DNA from: Methylophaga thalassica MP
GTDB taxonomy: Bacteria; Pseudomonadota; Gammaproteobacteria; Nitrosococcales; Methylophagaceae
Reading direction: 5' to 3'
Assembly: GCF_000214595.1 (NCBI RefSeq)
Contig: NZ_AFIG01000001.1
Span: 248,001-312,000, forward strand
DNA length: 64,000 bases
Position numbers and translations under genes: made by a program. The notes under the pieces were generated by a model. The model had not been told where the DNA came from. It ran no database searches and worked only from the letters and a program-made list of their open reading frames with translations. Below, one piece after another: positions 25,350 to 34,495 of this stretch; the first letter of the stretch is position 1, and the number at the start of each line of letters is the position of its first letter.

Positions 25350-26303
25350 TTACAACCAACCTTTACGTTTGAAATACAGGTAAGGTGCCATACCCGCAGC
25401 AACCATCAGACCAATCGCCATGGGATATCCATAGTGCCAATCCAGCTCTGGCATCACATGAAAGTTCATGCCGTAAATACTGGCCACCAGCGTTGGTGGT
25501 AAAAACACCACAGCCGCAATAGAGAAGATTTTAATAATCTGGGCTTGTTGAATATTGATAAAGCCCTGTGTCGAGTCCATCAGGAAGTTGATTTTATCGA
25601 ACAGGAAGGTGGTATGAGACATCAAGGTCTCTAAGTCGCGTAAAATTTCATACAAGGTTTCGCGTGACTCTGTCGCCTCGCGTAGATTTCTGAGCAGGAA
25701 GGAAATATCACGCTGGGTATCCATCAAGCACAGACGAATCTTTCCATTACTGTCTTCCAGCCTGGCCAGTTGGCTGATGCAGTCTTCCAGATCGGCCGCT
25801 TCATCTTCCAGCACTAAATGACTGACCCGTTCCAATTCACGATGAATATCTTCCAGATTATCGGCATGGTTTTCGACTTTCTGCTCCATCAGGGTAATCA
25901 ATAACTCACGTGGTGTTTTACAGCTAATTTGCCCGCGACGCGCTCGCATCCGTAACAGACGGAAGTCACTCAGCTCACCATCACGAATCGCCACCAGCCG
26001 ATCTTCCTGCAAAATGAAGGCAACAGAAACCGTGTGATGTCGCCCTTCTGAATACCCCAGAAATAAAGAATGCACATGCAGGCCATCCTGATCGGTAAAA
26101 CAGCGGGCTGAAGCTTCGATTTCTTCAACATCATCCACATCCGGCACTTCATCACTAAACAATGTGCCAAGCAAAGCACGTTCATCATCGTCCGGTTCAA
26201 GCGCATCAATCCAATCAGCCTCTCGTAATTGCGCAGCAGAAATATCTCCTTCCACAGGGATTTCTTTGATCAGACCTTGTGCGATTTTGTACAGACGAAG
26301 CAT
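25350..26303 (-). CDS. corA: CorA-family magnesium/cobalt channel
   Basis: 317 residues. A long cytosolic funnel domain rich in charged helices is followed by two C-terminal transmembrane helices, with the signature YGMNFHVMPELDW between them. The GMN motif is the ion-selectivity filter. Homopentameric CorA admits Mg2+ and also Co2+ or Ni2+. The gene ends in the usual basic tail (KRKGWL). It is monocistronic; a weak GC-rich inverted repeat after it (25310-25345) lacks a U-run. Confidence 0.93.
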   Translation of the reverse strand: MLRLYKIAQGLIKEIPVEGDISAAQLREADWIDALEPDDDERALLGTLFSDEVPDVDDVEEIEASARCFTDQDGLHVHSLFLGYSEGRHHTVSVAFILQEDRLVAIRDGELSDFRLLRMRARRGQISCKTPRELLITLMEQKVENHADNLEDIHRELERVSHLVLEDEAADLEDCISQLARLEDSNGKIRLCLMDTQRDISFLLRNLREATESRETLYEILRDLETLMSHTTFLFDKINFLMDSTQGFINIQQAQIIKIFSIAAVVFLPPTLVASIYGMNFHVMPELDWHYGYPMAIGLMVAAGMAPYLYFKRKGWL

Positions 26304-26381
26304 GCATACTCCTCATTGCTTGTATTAAGGCGGGCGAGAGGAGCATTGTAACGTAATGCATGCGGAATGCCGATGACTTAT

Positions 26382-27719
26382 CTATCGCAGTTTGAATAAC
26401 TCCTGGTGAAACTGCTCTGGTCGAAAACCATGTTTGATAAAGTCTTTACGGATAGCCTCACCCAATGCCGGCGGTCCACAAAACCAGATGCTGGCAATAC
26501 GCCAATCAGGCACCGTTTCACGGATACGCTCGGCATCCAGTAAGCCATCTTTTTCATCAATCAGTAAATGTAAGTTCACCTTTGACGCTTCTACATCAGC
26601 TGATAGCTTGTCTTTGATGGTATCGTTGATATGCATCGTAGGATGAAAGAAATCGATAACTTTACCGTCAGGCTGGTCTGCCAGTCGTTTCATGCGGGCA
26701 ATAAACGGCGTCATGCCAATACCAGCTCCCACCCAGATTTGACGTTGCTGTTCATCATTAAAATCAAACTCACCATACGGCCCTTCCATGGTGATCGGCA
26801 TGCCAATAGTTAAACGTTCACTCAAGCGACTGGTGTGATCACCCAAAGCTTTGATAACAAATCGTATCAATCGGGTATCAGGATCCCAGGCAGAAGCAAT
26901 GGTATAAGGATGCGGCCCTTCTTTTTTATCCGACATTGCAAAGGCAAACTGCCCTGCTTTATGCCCAGGCCACCCTTCATCCATTTTCACCGTTACTTCC
27001 ATCAAACGCATATCTTCATGATGTTCAAGAGAAGTGATCTCACCGTTAACTTTACGTTTGGCTCCAACCCGACCCAATAACACCCATATCGCAGAAAATG
27101 TTCCACTTGCCAGCAATACCGCCGTTAACCAACCAATCGGTTGAGACCAGTAATCGAAATTGAGCAAAATAATGGCATGAAAGACAAACAATAAATACGT
27201 GGCAGCCAACAATGTATGTGTTTTAGCAAACCAGCGATAAGGGAAGCGCTTAATTAATGCTAAAACGATCAGCAATGCAGCCGCGTAAAAAGCCCACTCA
27301 CCAATGGTTTCCGCCAGCCCTCGCTGTGAACGAAATAACCCTTCCCAAAAACCCAAGTCCGGACCATTTCCTCGAGGTCGACGCTCTGGTCGTTCAAGCC
27401 AACCCCAGCCGACCATCCACTTGGTACCTTTTGCGAACCACCAATGCGATACCGCAAACACTAATGCACTAATCCCCAACCATTTGTGCAGGCGGTACAT
27501 TTTATCCAGACCATTAAAATACGGCTCAATCCATTTCGGCCTGAGAGCAAGCAACATGGCCACACTCATGACCGTGATGGCAATTACACCGCTATATTGA
27601 ACAAATACCCTGCGAAAAGAAAAATAGCTGAAGGGATCAGGTAATAAGGTATCAGCCAATAACCACAACCCTGTGGGCACCAACAAAATTATCAGTAAGG
27701 CGTATTTAATCTTTTTCAT
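26382..27719 (-). CDS. Ferric-reductase-like flavocytochrome
   Basis: 445 residues from the ATG at 27719 (the longer reading starts at TTG). An N-terminal 6-helix ferric reductase-like membrane domain has paired haem-ligand candidates (His in YRLHKWLG, VSHWW, KTHTLLA and VFHAII). The C-terminal half is a ferredoxin-NADP-reductase-type module: FAD motif HPYTIASAW, NAD(P) motif GAGIGMTPF and WFCGPPALGEAI. Such proteins move electrons from NAD(P)H across the membrane to Fe(III) or another acceptor. It is divergent from the bacterioferritin-family gene, which fits an iron role. Confidence 0.85.
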   Translation of the reverse strand: MKKIKYALLIILLVPTGLWLLADTLLPDPFSYFSFRRVFVQYSGVIAITVMSVAMLLALRPKWIEPYFNGLDKMYRLHKWLGISALVFAVSHWWFAKGTKWMVGWGWLERPERRPRGNGPDLGFWEGLFRSQRGLAETIGEWAFYAAALLIVLALIKRFPYRWFAKTHTLLAATYLLFVFHAIILLNFDYWSQPIGWLTAVLLASGTFSAIWVLLGRVGAKRKVNGEITSLEHHEDMRLMEVTVKMDEGWPGHKAGQFAFAMSDKKEGPHPYTIASAWDPDTRLIRFVIKALGDHTSRLSERLTIGMPITMEGPYGEFDFNDEQQRQIWVGAGIGMTPFIARMKRLADQPDGKVIDFFHPTMHINDTIKDKLSADVEASKVNLHLLIDEKDGLLDAERIRETVPDWRIASIWFCGPPALGEAIRKDFIKHGFRPEQFHQELFKLR

Positions 27720-27819
27720 AAAACTCAATCATCGTTAAATCAATCGCGCGAATATAAACGAGGCAAGGTTAAGGGAACGTTAACAAGAACCATTATTATT
27801 TATAGATTATGTAAATGCA

Positions 27820-27833
27820 TTGATCTAAATCAG
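27820..27833. promoter_or_regulatory. FNR-like site between the reductase and bfr genes
   Basis: TTGATCTAAATCAG matches TTGAT-N4-ATCAA at 9 of 10 informative bases. It lies 92 bp before the bacterioferritin ATG and 100 bp before the divergent reductase. A TTTATT at 27862-27867 could be the -10 of a bfr promoter about 47 bp downstream of the site centre. Confidence 0.45.
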
Positions 27834-27924
27834 ACGATTCACTCAGCAAAATAGCGTCAGCTTTATTACAATGGTTGAATTCACGCAACAGCGTGCTCAA
27901 TAGAAAACAACATAGGATCGACAC

Positions 27925-28407
27925 ATGAAAGGCAGCCCAAAAGTTATTGAGTTACTCAATACTCTACTCGCAGGCGAACTGACGGCTATGGATCAATACT
28001 TCATTCATTCACGCATGTATGAAGACTGGGGCCTGACTCGCCTCTATAACCGCATCGCCCATGAAATGCAGGATGAAACCGAACACGCCGATCAAATGAT
28101 CAAACGTATCCTGTTTCTTGAAGGCATGCCCGACCTGACTCACCGCGAGCCACTTCATGTTGGTCATACCGTAAAAGAGATGCTGCAAAATGACCTCGAC
28201 TTGGAATACGCCGTCGTTAAAAACCTGCGTGATGGTATTGCCTTATGTGAAACCGAAAAAGACTTTGAGACTCGTAAAATGCTCAAACAACAGCTAGAAG
28301 ATACCGAGCTGGATCATACCCACTGGTTAGAGCAACAACTTGGCCTGATTGAAAAAATGGGACTGGAAAATTATCTACAAGCCATGACACTGGCAGAAGC
28401 GGAGTAA
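27925..28407 (+). CDS. bfr: Bacterioferritin-family ferritin lacking the haem Met (FtnA/BfrA type)
   Basis: 160 residues, a four-helix ferritin subunit. Ferroxidase-site residues are in place: Glu18, Glu51, His54, Glu94 and the Glu-His pair in the LEDTELDH segment (128/131, one residue later than E. coli Bfr). Position 52, the Met that ligates haem between subunits in E. coli Bfr, is Thr here (DETEHAD). The sequence is closest to the Pseudomonas FtnA (formerly BfrA) branch. It should still oxidise and store iron, but would need a Met-bearing partner to bind haem. An FNR-like site lies upstream. Confidence 0.9.
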
Positions 28408-28504
28408 TTCTCGGCAGATTGAGTAAGTTTCTAATTTGAAGCTATGTTCTTTTTATCAGCGAAAACAGGTAGTTTAAAAATAAGCTTTTGCTGAGAGAAT
28501 CGAA

Positions 28505-28709
28505 GTGCCCTTTGCGCAGCCGAGCATCGGAAATCAGTTTGGATCAAACACGACGAGTGTCTGAGCGCAGCGAGTTTTCGTCGTATTCCAAACTGATTGA
28601 GAAGCGCAGGGAACCCGATAGGGCAAGCTTTGGGCTGGCCTTTTTTGGTTCGTTTTTTGGCCACGCAAAAAATGAACGCCCCAGCGGCAGCGCCTGAAAG
28701 AAAGTAAAC
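28505..28709 (+). repeat. Repeat A, copy 1
   Basis: About 205 bp, nearly identical to copy 2 (28980-29184), 475 bp away. It holds two hairpins. HP1 (28532-28598): lower stem AATCAGTTTGGA / TCCAAACTGATT, 5' bulge TCAA, upper stem ACACGACGA / TCGTCGTAT with one mismatch, then a 21-nt loop beginning GTGTCTGAGCG and ending GCGAGTTT. HP2 (28648-28677): GTTCGTTTTTTG / CAAAAAATGAAC. Confidence 0.9.
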
Positions 28710-28744
28710 GATCATCAATACACGAAGATTTATCTTAGCTCTAA

Positions 28745-28946
28745 AGCCATTAGTTTCGTATTAATGACGAGTCAGGGAAATGCGTGCCCATTTCCCTAAC
28801 CACCCTAGGGTACCCCACCGTGCTGGCCTGCGGCTCCACTGCGTTGCTCACTTTATCTGGTGATTGGTCAAAACTCCCTTCGGTCAGACACTGACCAATC
28901 ATGATCCAGATAAACCTCCGCTACTCGTCAGCACAAACGGGGGATT
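28745..28946 (-). repeat. Repeat B, copy 1
   Basis: Constant 5' part with the hairpin AGGGAAATG / CATTTCCCT, the constant box CTAGGGTACCCCACCGTGCTG, a variable hairpin at 28852-28914, and the constant end CGTCAGCACAAACGGGG. Read leftward, the variable hairpin has a TTTATCTGG / CCAGATAAA lower stem, a 5' ATCA bulge, a perfect 10-bp upper stem (TGATTGGTCA / TGACCAATCA) and the 21-nt loop GTGTCTGACCG...GGAGTTT. That is the loop of repeat A in opposite orientation. Outer segments CCCC..GTGCTG and CAGCAC..GGGG can close the structure. Confidence 0.85.
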
Positions 28947-28979
28947 TTGGGAACAATATCGAGTCTGGAAAGTATTGAG

Positions 28980-29184
28980 GTGCCCTTTGCGCAGCCGAGC
29001 ATCGGAAATCAGTTTGGATCAAACACGACGAGTGTCTGAGCGCAGCGAGTTTTCGTCGTGTTCCAAACTGATTGAGAAGCGCAGGGAACCCGATAGGGCA
29101 AGCTTTGGGCTGGCCTTTTTTGGTTCGTTTTTTGGCCACGCAAAAAATGAACGCCCCAGCGGCAGCGTGTGAAAGAAAGTAAAA
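28980..29184 (+). repeat. Repeat A, copy 2
   Basis: Differs from copy 1 at only a few bases. One change (GTGTTCC in place of GTATTCC) restores full pairing of the upper stem: ACACGACGA / TCGTCGTGT is perfect in this copy, with the 4-nt TCAA bulge retained. Confidence 0.9.
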
Positions 29185-29220
29185 CATCATCAATATAAGA
29201 AGGATTGTTTTAGATTTATA

Positions 29221-29423
29221 AGCCATTAGTTTCGCCTTGATGGCGAGTCAGGGAAATGTTTGCCCATTTCCCTAACAACCCTAGGGCACCCCACCGTGCT
29301 GGCCTGCGGCTACACTCGTCATAACATTGATTCAGGCGGTCGGCTAAAACTCGCTTCGCTCAAACACTAGCCTCCCTCAGACCTGAATAAATGTCATTCC
29401 TCATCAGCACAAACGGGGATTTG
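29221..29423 (-). repeat. Repeat B, copy 2
   Basis: Same constant flanks as B1 but an unrelated stem. Read leftward, ACATTTATTCAGG pairs with CCTGAATCAATGT (one mismatch) and GGCTA with TAGCC, around the 21-nt loop GTGTTTGAGCG...GCGAGTTT (29347-29367). Confidence 0.82.
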
Positions 29424-29454
29424 AAAAGCTCCCAACCTTCCCGTGTTATTGCCG

Positions 29455-29630
29455 CCAAAAATTGAGCTTGGTTGATGGATTGAGTGGTCGAGTGTTTGAC
29501 CGAAAGGAGTTGTCCACCACGACATCAATCAAGTTTAATTTTTGGATTAAAGGCAATATCGGGCGCCCTTTTGTTTGGTTCGTTTATTTTGGGCATGCAA
29601 AATAAATGAACGCCCCGCGGCAGCGTGTGA
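29455..29630 (+). repeat. Repeat A, copy 3 (divergent)
   Basis: HP1 (29455-29545) has a 23-bp lower stem in which every position pairs if three G-U wobbles are allowed (arms 29455-29477 and 29523-29545). An internal loop GATTGA / GA, an upper stem GTGGTCGA / TCCACCAC (one mismatch) and the 21-nt loop GTGTTTGACCG...GGAGTTG follow. HP2 (29578-29611) is GTTCGTTTATTTTG / CAAAATAAATGAAC. The stem sequences are unrelated to copies 1-2; the architecture is the same. Confidence 0.85.
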
Positions 29631-29701
29631 AGTTGAATAAGATGAAGGTTCTAATAATTTTTACACTGACTCTAAATATTGAGGTTTATCTTAAGTCTAA
29701 A

Positions 29702-29904
29702 AGCCATTAGTTTCGTCTTAGTGGCGAGTCAGGGAAATGCGTGCCCATTTCCCTAACAACCCTAGGGCACCCCACCGTGCTGGCCTAAGGCTCCACTGCG
29801 TTGCTCGCTTTATCTGGTGATTGGTCAAAACTCCCTTCGGTCAGACACTAACCAATCATGATCCAGATAAACCTCCGCTACTCGTCAGCACAAACGGGGA
29901 TTTG
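29702..29904 (-). repeat. Repeat B, copy 3
   Basis: Stem type as in B1 (TTTATCTGG, TGATTGGTCA). One base change turns a pair into a G-U wobble only when read on the minus strand, in agreement with the loop orientation. The variable hairpin is at 29809-29871 with its loop at 29828-29848. Confidence 0.85.
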
Positions 29905-30074
29905 AAAAACTCCCCTTCTTACTATTGATCGCCGCTCACAATTAGAGCCTTATTAGGTTTCCCCAACCACACTTGAAAACCTCATCATTAACCCCATTTA
30001 ACTCTCACCCAACTGAAACAAACACTTTCCACTAATATCAGTAAATAATAGCCACAAAGCTAAACGAAGAAACC

Positions 30075-30401
30075 ATGAGCAAACAAGAACTCTTATATCG
30101 TGTCGAATTTATTCAAGCCGGCCAACGTTACGAACTCTACGCACGCGAACTCAGCCAAGGCGGTTTATTTGGTTTTATCGAGATAGGTGACTTCGTGTGG
30201 GATACCCACACCTCGGTAGTATTAGATCCCAGCCACGAAAAACTCAAAGACGAATTTGCTGATGTGACTCGTACCTATATTCCCATGCATGCGGTATTAA
30301 GAATTGATTCGGTGACAAAAAAAGGTTTAGCCAAGATCACCGAATTTGATGGCAAAGTGACTCACTTTCCCAGTCCGATTTATACGCCAACCAATAAATA
30401 G
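30075..30401 (+). CDS. DUF1820-family protein
   Basis: 108 residues, a small soluble beta-rich protein: LYRVEFIQAGQRYELYARELSQGGLFGFIEIGDFVW, then DVTRTYIPMHAVLRIDSVTKKG and a Pro-rich tail. It matches the short DUF1820 proteins conserved in gammaproteobacteria. Their role is unknown. It stands alone between repeat DNA blocks; 'aaacgaagaaacc' upstream gives only a weak ribosome site. Confidence 0.85.
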   Translation: MSKQELLYRVEFIQAGQRYELYARELSQGGLFGFIEIGDFVWDTHTSVVLDPSHEKLKDEFADVTRTYIPMHAVLRIDSVTKKGLAKITEFDGKVTHFPSPIYTPTNK

Positions 30402-30414
30402 AATGACTTAAAAA

Positions 30415-30494
30415 GTAGGTTGGGTTGAACCTATGAAACCCAACAAACCCTGCGTCTTGATATATGTTGGGTTTCGTACCTCTTCCCCACCTAC
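30415..30494. repeat. Palindromic mini-element, copy 1
   Basis: About 80 bp. Left arm GTAGGTTGGGTTGAACC...GAAACCCAACA, short centre, right arm TGTTGGGTTTCGTAC...CCACCTAC (partly decayed). It is an inverted copy of the element at 31488: the centre 'ctgcgtcttgat' matches the reverse complement of 'atcaagacacag' there. Confidence 0.85.
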
Positions 30495-30557
30495 AAGGGG
30501 CATGAACGGGGAAGAAGATTCGATTTTTCTCCCCGTCTATTACCGTTAAAAATGCCT

Positions 30558-31409
30558 TTATTTCAAAGGTAAATAAATATCCGTAATCAACTCATGCTCA
30601 TCTACTTCTGGGAACATATTGATATAGTGAAAAAACACTGGGAAATCACGTAGCTCTTCATCTGTTTCCGGTAACCACTGACCATAGAGATAATAAATCG
30701 GTGTATCAATATCATCCCGTGATCCCAAATGTCTGACTCTGGCACATCGCCCAGCCGGAATCGTTTTTGTTATTAGACCTTGTTCATTTTCTGGAATATC
30801 AGCCAGTACAGAACCACAAAGGTCAAACTCAAATTCATCAGCACTGACAACATTGGGATCGTTATATGGCACACCATATGTGTCACTGGTCTTTACCGGT
30901 GATAAACCACTCTGCTTACGCCAATCAATAAACGTTTTAATCGACTCATTCAGCAGATTAGGAGAACCACGGTGCTCCAATACTGCTACTTTTATTTCCA
31001 CAAACTCTACCACTTCAACATTCATCATCATTTGCCTCTCAATTCTGGTTAATTTAATCAGTTCATTCCAAATGTCCCACTTGGGCATTTGTTTGAATTG
31101 AGAAGGACTCTGCTGGCAGTAGTTTTTGAATGCACGCGAAAATGATTCTGGACTTTCAAAACCGGCTTGTAAGGCGATATCAATCACACGTAACTTGGGC
31201 TCAAACACTAACTGATAAGCCGCACGCTTTAATCGTGAAATCTGAATGTATTTAGCGACATTAATGCCCACAAAATCAGCAAACTGACGGTGAAAGTGAT
31301 ACCTAGAGAAATATGTAACCTGACTGAGCTTATCAAGAGATAAATCATCATCAAGATGTGACTGAATATAATCACACACCTTTATCATTCTGTTTGCATA
31401 CACACTCAT
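30558..31409 (-). CDS. AraC-family regulator with GyrI-like effector domain
   Basis: 283 residues. The N-terminal AraC/XylS DNA-binding domain has two helix-turn-helix units (LSLDKLSQVTYFSRYHFHRQF; VIDIALQAGFESPESFSRAFK). The C-terminal ~155 residues are a GyrI-like/SOUL-type small-molecule binding domain (VEIKVAVLEHRGSPNLL ... TIPAGRCARVRHLGS ... ITDIYLPLK). The layout matches SbmC/BmrR-like multidrug sensors of the Rob type. No target gene is adjacent; palindromic mini-elements flank it on both sides. Confidence 0.9.
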   Translation of the reverse strand: MSVYANRMIKVCDYIQSHLDDDLSLDKLSQVTYFSRYHFHRQFADFVGINVAKYIQISRLKRAAYQLVFEPKLRVIDIALQAGFESPESFSRAFKNYCQQSPSQFKQMPKWDIWNELIKLTRIERQMMMNVEVVEFVEIKVAVLEHRGSPNLLNESIKTFIDWRKQSGLSPVKTSDTYGVPYNDPNVVSADEFEFDLCGSVLADIPENEQGLITKTIPAGRCARVRHLGSRDDIDTPIYYLYGQWLPETDEELRDFPVFFHYINMFPEVDEHELITDIYLPLK

Positions 31410-31487
31410 GCTTTACCGGCCTCCCCAATTCGAGAGACAGTATCGTGTTTTTTTAGATGCATAACCTGACCATAATTGCTCTTTTAT

Positions 31488-31567
31488 GTAGGTTGGGTTG
31501 AGGAACGAAACCCAACATAGATCAAGACACAGGATTTGTTGGGTTTCTCAGGTTCAACCCAACCTAC
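31488..31567. repeat. Palindromic mini-element, copy 2
   Basis: An 80-bp near-palindrome: GTAGGTTGGGTTGAGG...GAAACCCAACA on the left, TGTTGGGTTTC...TCAACCCAACCTAC on the right, with a 19-bp centre. Each arm also folds by itself (GTTGGGTT / AACCCAAC). Confidence 0.88.
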
Positions 31568-31586
31568 GCGAGTTAATGCTGTCATT

Positions 31587-31920
31587 ATTTCGCCTTGATG
31601 GCGAGTCAGGGAAATATTCGCCATTCCCTGTGACTCAACTGCAAGCAGGTTGCTTCGCAATTCAAAATCGTTCCCGAAGATTTTGTGCATGCCCATTTCC
31701 CTAACAACCCTAGGGCACCCCACAGTGCTGGCCTGCGGCTCCACTCGTCATAACATTGATTCAGGCGGTCGGCTAAAACTCGCTTCGCTCACAAATTTGT
31801 CTGGAACAAATTTGGACGCCGAAGGCGCCCAAAGGGTGAGTGGCATGGATGCCACGAATCAAACACTAACCAGCCGTTACCCAGACAAAGCTGCGCTACT
31901 CGTCAGCACAAACGGGGAAA
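31587..31920 (-). repeat. Repeat B, copy 4 (mosaic with two insertions)
   Basis: Carries B flanks (CGCCTTGATGGCGAGTCAGG; end CGTCAGCACAAACGGGG). One insertion (~31615-31690) splits the AGGGAAAT hairpin. A second of ~68 bp (~31792-31859), with its own inverted repeats (CAAATTTGT/ACAAATTTG, GTGGCAT/ATGCCAC), lies inside the conserved loop. The left arm is of the B2 type, the right arm is of a third type (TAACCAGCCGTTACC), so the copy looks recombinant. Confidence 0.75.
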
Positions 31921-31954
31921 TAGGGATCGCTTTTCGTCCCGTCTATTGCCGCTG

Positions 31955-32128
31955 AAAATTCGCTGTATTTTATGGATTAAGTGGACACGTGTTTGAGCGT
32001 AGCGAGTTGGTGTCCACGCCATAAAATACAGTGAATTTTTAGAGATAAGGCAATATCGGGTGCCTTTTTCTTTGGTTCGTTTCTTTTGGGCAAACAAAAG
32101 AAATGAACGCCCTGCGGCAGCATGTGAT
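31955..32128 (+). repeat. Repeat A, copy 4
   Basis: HP1: 21-bp lower stem (arms 31955-31975 and 32019-32039, all paired with one G-U), internal loop ATTAA / G, perfect upper stem GTGGACAC / GTGTCCAC, and 21-nt loop GTGTTTGAGCG...GCGAGTTG. A short AAGGCA / TGCCTT hairpin with TTTTTC follows. HP2 is GTTCGTTTCTTTTG / CAAAAGAAATGAAC. Confidence 0.88.
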
Positions 32129-32148
32129 TTTAAATCAAGAAACTACCC

Positions 32149-32177
32149 GTTGGGTTTCGTTCCTCAACCCAACCTAC
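32149..32177. repeat. Palindromic mini-element, half copy
   Basis: Only one arm is present: GTTGGGTTTCGTTCC then TCAACCCAACCTAC, folding as GTTGGGTT / AACCCAAC. It lies 29 bp from the 3' end of the FRG gene. Confidence 0.8.
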
Positions 32178-32205
32178 CGTGCTAAATATTTAACTTTGAG
32201 GAAGA

Positions 32206-33045
32206 TTACTTTTGAAGAAACCTTTTATCTGCGAGAGTCTTGATCAAAGACTCTTCACTTTGAAAGAGTGTAAAGTGATTAATATTAAAATCATTTAGAT
32301 TCTTTAACATTTCACTCCTCAAACTGCCAGGAATAACGATCTTAATCAGTACATCCTGTTCAATAATGCTCGGTCGCTGAGTTTGATTATCAAAAACTGA
32401 TTCATGAGAGCAAAAATAATGTCTTTCTCTCTCATAATCCCATTGCGTTGCGACTGTATACCAAGCCTTTTGAGCGAAATGCCTTTTATGAGTTCTAACA
32501 AATGGGCCTTGTAACGTTATTTTTGGTTTACTTCCCAATCCACCCTTTACACCATGCGGCCTCTCTATATAACAATATATTGCTGCTGGCTCAGTACATC
32601 GTTCAATCAATGCAAAGTATGCCGCAATGAATGGTGATTCTGACCAATCTAAAAGAGGCGATGGGTAACCATGATGTCTTAGATATACCAGATACTCATA
32701 TGCTGGTATATCTACTTTAAAATGATCAATATTGTCATTTAGGTCTTTTTGGAGTTCTTCATGAGTCGGCAACTTCCAATTTTTTTCTGTAAATGCTTCT
32801 ATTTCATGTGACTGCTGAATAGCACCAAAAACATAATCAAATACATGAAACTGTTTTTTCGTGGCTCTTTCGAGAGTTGTTTCTAACTTCCAGTTAGTGT
32901 TTGCCTGACCTCGAAACAAAATAAGATTATTACGTTCGTATCTTTTTCCGTTATCTAGTTCTTTTATTGTCTTCGAATAAATACTACGAACTTCATCTAT
33001 AGCTTTTAGAAAGCCTTTCCATGTTCGTATATGTTTAGTAATCAT
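32206..33045 (-). CDS. FRG-domain protein coupled to glmU
   Basis: 279 residues from an ATG at 33045 whose A is the last base of the glmU stop (TAATG). An FRG domain is evident: LILFRGQANTNWKLETTLERA near residue 40 gives the name motif, followed by YLVYLRHHGYPSPLLDWSESPFIAAYFALI (~120-150). FRG domains are accessory, sporadically distributed and often occur in mobile or defence-linked contexts; the activity is not established. No other domain or signal peptide is visible. It is flanked by repeat DNA downstream, which suggests insertion next to glmU. Confidence 0.88.
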   Translation of the reverse strand: MITKHIRTWKGFLKAIDEVRSIYSKTIKELDNGKRYERNNLILFRGQANTNWKLETTLERATKKQFHVFDYVFGAIQQSHEIEAFTEKNWKLPTHEELQKDLNDNIDHFKVDIPAYEYLVYLRHHGYPSPLLDWSESPFIAAYFALIERCTEPAAIYCYIERPHGVKGGLGSKPKITLQGPFVRTHKRHFAQKAWYTVATQWDYERERHYFCSHESVFDNQTQRPSIIEQDVLIKIVIPGSLRSEMLKNLNDFNINHFTLFQSEESLIKTLADKRFLQK

Positions 33046-34412
33046 TATGATTTCTTCTTCACCGGCCTCTGCCACCCACTAACCGTCTTCTGCTTAGACA
33101 CCGTCAAAGTTAAAGCCTCCGAAGGAGCATCCTTCCGAATCGTAGACCCAGCCCCAATAGTCGCCCCATCCTCAACAACAACAGGCGCTACCAACTGCGT
33201 ATCCGACCCCACAAACACCCGATCCCCAATCACTGTACGGTGTTTATTTGCTCCATCATAATTACAAGTAATGGTACCGGCACCGATATTCACATCGGCG
33301 CCCATATCGGTATCACCAATATAACTTAAATGATTGATTTTAGAACCTAATCCGATATTAGCGTTTTTAATTTCAACAAAGTTGCCGACTTTGGCTTTAG
33401 CAGCTAAACGGCTACCCGGACGTAAACGGGCATAAGGACCTACCGAACAGTTAGCCCCCACTTCGGCATTCTCAATAATGCTATTAGGCAGAATTTCAGC
33501 CCCTTCATGAATGATGCTGTTGATGATGATGCAGTTGGCGCCGATAGTGACATCATTTGCCAGCGTATTATTGCCTTCGAAAATCACATTCACATCAACG
33601 GTAATATCTTGTCCAACCGTCAGTTCACCACGAATATCAACACGAGCGGGATCACGCATGGTGACACCTGCCATCATTAGTTCTGTGGCTTTTTTCTGCT
33701 GGTAATAACTTTCCAGTTCGGCCAGTTGTACACGGTTGTTTACACCAGCCACTTCCTGCTCGTCTTCACAGGTGATGGAGTCGATCTCCATGCCTTGTTC
33801 TACCGCTTTAGCAATCAGGTCGGTAAGGTAATATTCGCCTTGAGCGTTATTGTTATCGAGTTGAGATAAAGCCCCGTTTAACCATTTTGCTGGAATACAC
33901 ATAATGCCGGTATTCACTTCGTTGATTTCACGCGTTTCTTCGTTGGCGTCTTTTTCTTCGGTGATCATCAGCATACGTCCGGTGACATCACGCACGATGC
34001 GGCCGTATCCTGTTGGATCATCCAATACCGTGGTCAACACTTTGAGTGTATTAGCATCACCTTCATGAATTAGTGCCTCAAGGGTGTCTTTTTCAATGAG
34101 AGGTACATCACCATATAACACCAGGACTTGGTCACTCTCCTGATAAAAGGCTTTGGCCTGCTCAACAGCATGGCCTGTTCCCTTTTGCTCTAGCTGCATA
34201 GCGGTATCAATACCTTGTTGCTGCAGATAAGGCACGACGTCATCTGCACCACTGCCACAGACCACAGCAAGTTGGCTGGGATTGAGTTGTTTGGCGGTAT
34301 CAATCACATGTTGGAGTAAAGGTTTGTTAGCGAGTGTGTGCATGACTTTCGGTTTAGCCGATTTCATGCGAGTGCCTTTACCGGCAGCGAGGATGATAAT
34401 GCTCAGGCTCAT
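33045..34412 (-). CDS. glmU: Bifunctional GlmU (UDP-GlcNAc synthesis)
   Basis: 455 residues from the ATG at 34412, where homology begins (MSLSIIILAAGKGTRM); upstream in-frame ATGs give an atypical N-terminal tail. The N-terminal pyrophosphorylase (~1-230) has the LAAGKGTRM uridylyl-transfer motif. The C-terminal half is a left-handed beta-helix of hexapeptide repeats that carries acetyltransferase activity (ending GAGTITCNYDGANKH, VGSDTQLVAPV). It makes UDP-GlcNAc for peptidoglycan and LPS. A terminator separates it from atpC; the FRG gene follows with overlap. Confidence 0.95.
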   Translation of the reverse strand: MSLSIIILAAGKGTRMKSAKPKVMHTLANKPLLQHVIDTAKQLNPSQLAVVCGSGADDVVPYLQQQGIDTAMQLEQKGTGHAVEQAKAFYQESDQVLVLYGDVPLIEKDTLEALIHEGDANTLKVLTTVLDDPTGYGRIVRDVTGRMLMITEEKDANEETREINEVNTGIMCIPAKWLNGALSQLDNNNAQGEYYLTDLIAKAVEQGMEIDSITCEDEQEVAGVNNRVQLAELESYYQQKKATELMMAGVTMRDPARVDIRGELTVGQDITVDVNVIFEGNNTLANDVTIGANCIIINSIIHEGAEILPNSIIENAEVGANCSVGPYARLRPGSRLAAKAKVGNFVEIKNANIGLGSKINHLSYIGDTDMGADVNIGAGTITCNYDGANKHRTVIGDRVFVGSDTQLVAPVVVEDGATIGAGSTIRKDAPSEALTLTVSKQKTVSGWQRPVKKKS

Positions 34413-34462
34413 AGGGTGTTCCATATTGGTGATAATGGGGTTAAGTTTAGCAGACAATAGAT

Positions 34463-34495
34463 AAAAAAAAGGCCGTCACGAAGACAGCCTTTTTT
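34463..34495 (-). terminator. Terminator of the atp operon
   Basis: Leftward AAAAAAGGCTGTC / GACGGCCTTTTTT (one G-U, loop TTCGT) with a long T-run. It sits between atpC and glmU, so glmU needs its own promoter or read-through. Confidence 0.92.

Follow-up and report, generated by a model that had tools for sequence, protein, structure and literature searches.

In integron gene cassettes, a single gene and a structured element are strung behind a fixed address. Element-free hotspots, as described in the part of PMC5635113 available to us, show high gene turnover between fixed core genes and are exchanged by recombination in the core flanks. The core defence hotspots of Pseudomonas aeruginosa, in the accessible portion of PMC10250203, have a core-gene address and varied, partly defence-type cargo; their median lengths are 26 and 6 kb, and they commonly include mobile genes and have a tRNA or tmRNA close by. 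The GTAG REP repeats associated with RAYT transposases consist, in the excerpt of PMC3733652 at hand, of a GTAG followed by a short palindrome and occur in inverted pairs. The site behind the essential gene glmU in Methylophaga thalassica MP, which lies in the 64,000-nucleotide stretch of DNA analysed here (the window), is taken by us to be one of the element-free hotspots that are exchanged by core-flank recombination. In our overall explanation, which we hold at a probability of roughly 0.7, an FRG-domain gene is the current occupant of a replacement hotspot at the glmU 3′ end, where short accessory genes would be swapped behind the stop codon, nearly always in the sense orientation and usually together with a structured REP-type repeat.

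A preliminary description of this DNA had placed the FRG start on the glmU stop codon and palindromic repeat DNA beyond the gene, and both statements are borne out on the minus strand: the glmU TAA (33047-33045) overlaps the FRG ATG (33045-33043), and repeat DNA lies at 31486-32195 and again at about 28456-29950. The FRG ORF encodes 279 amino acids (33045-32206, minus strand) and matches the FRG domain PF08867 in Pfam with an E-value of 2.6e-19 and 70.3 bits, against a cut-off of 25. The gene is AT-rich, with a GC content of 0.33-0.39 in 300-base windows from 32150 to 33049; glmU and the atp genes are at about 0.43-0.50. An alternative in-frame GTG at 33075 lengthens the ORF, so that the exact FRG start is a matter of choice. 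The TAATG overlap suggests that FRG is translationally coupled to glmU, and the cargo of the slot would more generally be expressed together with glmU by such coupling. A terminator-like hairpin at 34465-34495 separates atpC from glmU, and glmU, possibly with FRG, may therefore be its own transcription unit. In another genome (G333, locus L165) glmU and glmS share a TAATG overlap, so that an ordinary gene, too, is coupled to glmU at its stop.

Table 1. Features at and around the slot behind glmU (window coordinates; a dot marks features given without a strand)
Feature	Position	Strand	Basis or remark
Presumed bacterioferritin-like core gene that bounds the slot on its other side in many congeners	27925..28407	+	tentative name
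Three further repeat copies, spacing 476-481 bases, partial tandem structure	28456..29950	-	repeat DNA with palindromes
Short ORF	30075-30401	+	ORF list
REP-like arm, 89% complementary to its inverted counterpart at 31487-31567	30415..30495	.	inverted pair of arms
AraC/GyrI-type regulator, second variable gene; also at the matching place in G008	30558..31409	-	Pfam
Structured REP-type repeat behind the cargo, common to congeners	31486..32195	-	sequence comparison, folding
FRG gene, slot cargo	32206..33045	-	PF08867, PDC-S15
TAATG overlap, glmU stop/FRG start	33043..33047	-	sequence reading
glmU	33045..34421	-	Pfam matches; 80-96% identity to congeners
GT-rich, C-poor glmU 3′ end	33048..33257	-	last 70 codons GT3 0.87, C3 0.01; last 50 codons 0.92, 0.00
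Block divergent from same-species G038, about 9 kb, starting within glmU	25400..34200	.	edges estimated, 300-column windows

The repeat beyond FRG (Table 1) is strongly structured. Read as minus-strand RNA, 31570-32190 folds at -220 kcal/mol, compared with -181 kcal/mol (sd 7) for 20 shuffles (z -5.3). By reading, it carries a GTAG tag followed by a palindrome at 32177-32149, and arms at 30415-30495 and 31487-31567 are inverted relative to each other. These 81-base REP-like arms enclose the AraC/GyrI-type gene in the interval 30415-31567. A known RNA family was rejected as the identity of the repeat, the single Rfam match being sub-threshold and meaningless. A cassette border before the AraC gene, at about 31425, was likewise dismissed: the 13-base match to the glmU end found there is missing from the matching place in G008 and scores below the shuffle maximum, and is attributed to chance.

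The genus search covered 24 genomes, of which 18 besides M. thalassica MP itself had a readable glmU end; the others were a genome with glmU cut by a contig end (G004), two with no match (G001, G011) and two with weak, non-orthologous matches (G003, G006). A glmU-FRG pair common to all close relatives, named at the outset as the sign of a conserved housekeeping link, is not what these genomes hold, as FRG stands behind glmU in 0 of the 18. Other ORFs lie directly behind glmU in 17 of them, the exception (G012) having the repeat only, and DNA matching the FRG-side repeat follows in 16, no such repeat being seen in G015 or in G018, the latter on a short contig. The first cargo ORF is in sense to glmU in 16 of 17 congeners, and with mechanically chosen starts the gap from the glmU stop is 4-143 bases in 15 and 195 in G021.

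The cargo itself is varied. It includes an MTES_1575 nuclease beside a sub-threshold Sel1 match (G038), a T5orf172 GIY-YIG protein (G008), SocA/Panacea on the opposite strand (G013), HNH with SRA (G022), a sub-threshold DUF5677 match (G002), PDC-S31 (G014), RmrA (G005), a PemK-like protein (G007) and a weak, sub-threshold rve fragment (G019), and no Pfam family matched the scanned ORFs of G009, G010, G015, G016, G017, G018 and G021. In the sister genera, where Pfam was applied to 10 of 13 cargo ORFs, matches were to TIR (TIR-TM model), Panacea, DUF3644/PDC-S64, DUF3592 and, weakly, HNH. PADLOC models were matched at an E-value of 0.001 or better by 8 of the 21 cargo proteins scanned, FRG included, six of them below 1e-10, and 13 had no model match. 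When 34 cargo ORFs were compared all against all, there were two clear homologous pairs and one weak similarity (G038/G315). One pair, from G020 (whose cargo entered this comparison alone) and G022, is 85% identical; the other, from G021 and G323 (L051 4303-4806 and L164 1962-2450), is 40% identical across two genera, pointing to a shared gene pool that may supply the site.

The preliminary description had advised a comparison with sister strains for an empty site; unfilled sites are present both in sister genera and among the outgroups. Seven genomes of the sister genera have glmU leading straight into degP or the next core gene, and in three more a very long sense frame lies behind glmU, the repeat being absent from all of these; glmS comes next in G333, which was counted with the outgroups, and in five outgroup genomes. 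The sister-genus set comprised 33 genomes, of which three (G312, G320, G332) had no glmU match passing the cut-off, one (G327) was not retrieved, one (G304) was excluded because its end did not align, and two of unclear state (G319 and G325, with a GT3 of 0.68 and 0.71) were left aside; the flank of G310 is 79 bases, and the outgroup G028 was not fetched. Given these unfilled sites, the filled state looks like an addition or replacement. The earlier idea of an insertion at the glmU end is thus supported insofar as none of 18 congeners shares FRG and unfilled sites exist; a single accident is not what is seen, as the slot is used in at least two genera. With high cargo turnover between fixed core flanks, the site is very probably a hotspot.

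As to how cargo is exchanged, one strain pair is informative. M. thalassica MP and G038 are labelled one species and, in 300-column windows, are 98-100% identical over a 3.6-kb atp region; the next two windows are at 95 and 98%, and identity then falls to 85-89% over the rest of glmU. Downstream of glmU it is 66-95% where alignable, and it returns to 99-100% from near 25.4 kb. Because this divergent block of about 9 kb is bounded and lies between members of one species, homologous recombination is the best reading of the exchange. In this pair recombination at flanking core genes accounts for the pattern, and such recombination, with no dedicated integrase, is probably how cargo is swapped.

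It is improbable, by comparison, that the gene and its repeat form a mobile unit moved by a recombinase that is supplied in trans and acts on a DNA site in the glmU end. Such a site would fit the conservation of the glmU end beyond coding need, where the commonest codon accounts for 0.94-1.0 of genomes at Q, K, T and V positions, its mean share across 324 conserved positions being 0.68, and the recovery of a 33-base glmU-end pattern from 3 of 274 genomes of the class, all in this family; gene and repeat also change together at a second locus, dnaQ. A Y1-type transposase match is present in 15 of the 24 genus genomes, 14 of them above the cut-off, and these enzymes may help in exchange. Against this reading, no convincing att-type repeat was found: matches to the glmU end beyond the cargo do not rise above the shuffle maximum in 18 of the 19 loci (that in G021 exceeds its own maximum by one point). 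In addition, no integrase was found among the cargo proteins scanned, the rve fragment in G019 being the nearest to one. The flanks of the divergent block are kilobases away, and biases like that of the glmU end are found at xerC, dnaQ and polA in unrelated sequences. IS-type genes are present in G306, by reading of its ORFs.

The glmU end is unusual in its codon usage. Third-position C in the last 180 bases is 0.02-0.03 in the genus, compared with 0.23-0.39 further upstream. Among 368 ORFs of M. thalassica MP, sampled from the window, 20 further stretches and four repeat loci, the third-position GT content (GT3) of the last 50 codons is highest in glmU, at 0.92 against a mean of 0.53 (sd 0.08), and no other ORF has a third-position C (C3) of 0.04 or less. 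Filled sister-genus genomes have the same codon shift and unfilled ones lack it. Over the last 70 codons, with G012 excluded for its broken glmU frame, median GT3 is 0.855 (range 0.58-0.96) at 32 filled sites and 0.543 (0.43-0.71) at 16 unfilled sites (p 3.7e-8, kinship ignored). In the sister genera alone, 14 filled and 10 unfilled genomes have non-overlapping GT3 (p 4.7e-5, kinship ignored); without the three long-frame genomes the comparison is 14 to 7 (p 0.0003, kinship ignored), and if those three are counted as filled they become exceptions and p is 0.013, again ignoring kinship. The rest of glmU has a slight difference in the opposite direction (p 0.02, kinship ignored). Mapped on a tree built from the remainder of glmU, occupancy has at least seven changes and the high-GT state eight, and of five independent supported pairs four agree, none opposes and one is a tie (p 0.125). 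The exceptions are G018, a filled genome with a GT3 of 0.58, and two unfilled genomes, G328 (0.68) and G330 (0.71). On the far side of the slot, the gene that we take to be bacterioferritin-like (bfr) has a weak GT trend only, and degP, where it stands beside the slot, goes in the opposite direction.

Weaker versions of this bias are seen in xerC and dnaQ ends that bear the repeat. In M. thalassica MP (L083 4211-5731), xerC and polA converge on the repeat and the 3′ coding end of each is GT-rich; a few congeners have extra ORFs in this interval. The xerC GT3 is 0.76 in 15 repeat-bearing genomes and 0.57 in 7 others (p 0.006); xerC ranks second among the 368 ORFs (0.76), with the third close at 0.75, in a locus that was chosen for carrying the repeat. 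On the other side of that repeat, polA, readable in 13 of the 15 and 3 of the 7 loci, has GT3 values of 0.69 and 0.49, respectively. A second slot, between dnaQ and grpE (L082 4680-6254), holds two small ORFs (134 and 129 aa) with no Pfam family above the cut-off, and the repeat. Here M. thalassica MP and G038 have near-identical flanks and differ in the interior, G038 having the repeat alone, and the repeat copies differ too; G008 has another ORF. Over the last 60 bases of dnaQ, C3 is 0.00 in five repeat-bearing genomes of one clade and 0.25 in 18 others; with G005, which bears the repeat and has a C3 of 0.26, the comparison becomes 6 to 18, 0.04 to 0.25 (p 0.003). The repeat-flanked genes of L081 and L084 have no GT bias. 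Since biases of a related kind occur at the xerC, dnaQ and polA ends, each in its own sequence, the tail is no longer read mainly as an attachment sequence brought by the insert.

Several explanations of the GT-rich tail have been weighed. The tail could be a recombination-prone arm of the kind favoured by RecA, which, in the part of PMC3763553 available, prefers TGG-type, Chi-like single strands; the glmU tail carries a strand that would suit this preference. Such an arm is the reading that we prefer, although we regard it as rather unlikely. Chi-like polarity at grpE gave a mixed result in four related genomes and was set aside. About as likely as the arm are a mutational origin and selection on the mRNA end. 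A mutation signature, itself a doubtful reading, would arise if the coding strand were often single-stranded near the slot, for example in R-loops ahead of the hairpin-rich repeat, and lost C and A. The loss of third-position C and A is indeed strand-specific and confined to the slot-facing gene end, the polA coding strand, across the repeat from xerC, is affected alike, and the affected stretch is shorter at dnaQ; the gain, however, is largely of G, beyond what loss of A supplies, so that simple deamination does not explain it, and two repeat-flanked genes and the dnaQ of G005 are without the bias. Selection on the RNA, which we consider unlikely, would act, for example, through a message end poor in C, which would escape Rho-dependent termination or unwanted base-pairing and thereby allow expression of the cargo. 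This would accord with cargo that is nearly always in sense and close to glmU, and with a tail within the coding sequence just upstream of it, but not with xerC ends that are biased in repeat-bearing genomes with no obvious cargo, nor with polA, which faces its slot and has no sense cargo. More speculative, and to be judged improbable, is the broader proposal that the family keeps landing slots at core-gene ends, at glmU and more weakly at xerC and dnaQ, with the 3′ end recoded as a GT-rich, C-poor arm through which single accessory genes would be exchanged by homologous recombination, which would amount to an integrase-free cassette system with its arm written in synonymous codons.

The Frg domain is placed in the ADP-ribosyltransferase (ART) superfamily and described as a likely effector in the portion of PMC9503650 available; by that placement, FRG would be an effector that consumes NAD or ADP-ribosylates its targets and brings infected cells to a halt. 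In PADLOC it has a match to the candidate family PDC-S15 (best E 4.9e-31), and its closest relative found, a 49% identical protein in an Anaerolineales genome (the one relative from a genome-contig search), has FRGQ and LRHHGYPSPLLDW in common with it. Among 38 genomes searched, M. thalassica MP included, three others have FRG matches, which are distant and not at this site, and plasmid records gave eight, each below 60% identity. No solved structure of an FRG relative was found, and the structure model, with a pLDDT of 34.6, is too low for use. A defence role had been called possible from the start and is still so, given the PDC-S15 match and PADLOC matches among 7 of the 20 other cargo proteins scanned; that FRG is a defence effector is a tentative conclusion that falls just short of an even chance. 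Slightly less probable is that it is a housekeeping partner or an addiction-type gene. The unsettled function of the family leaves room for such a role, and phage records contained a single distant match, a Salmonella sequence, and viral contigs none by pattern scan. The absence of FRG from the site in all 18 readable congeners, its PDC-S15 match, and the TIR-TM, RmrA and candidate-defence models among slot cargo elsewhere argue against it.

By layout alone, with a gene and a structured element behind a fixed address, the glmU slot resembles an integron cassette, and it differs in that its address is the coding end of glmU. As an address it is short and easy to recognise, and it can be used across a bacterial family to find accessory genes, of which some are defence-type and many have no known function. 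No report of glmU as an insertion hotspot or of GT-rich codons at insertion sites was found in the open-access literature, nor any description of an occupancy-linked, strand-specific recoding at the end of an essential gene. The repeat shares with GTAG REPs, as the available text of PMC3733652 presents them, the GTAG, the short palindrome and the inverted pairs; here, unlike there, the palindrome sits within a longer repeat of several hundred bases. With the P. aeruginosa hotspots, within what the accessible portion of PMC10250203 covers, the slot shares a core-gene address and varied, partly defence-type cargo, but it is about 1-2 kb long and lies behind a protein gene. It is closest to the element-free hotspots, to judge from the available part of PMC5635113, in its high turnover between fixed core genes, in cargo that was scanned without a mobility gene being identified, and in the recombination at flanking core genes of one strain pair. 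It departs from them in usually holding one or two short genes with a structured repeat alongside, and in a glmU end that is recoded in step with occupancy. The GT-rich tail sets the glmU slot apart from known hotspots, and whether the recoding causes or follows insertion bears on how element-free hotspots originate and persist.
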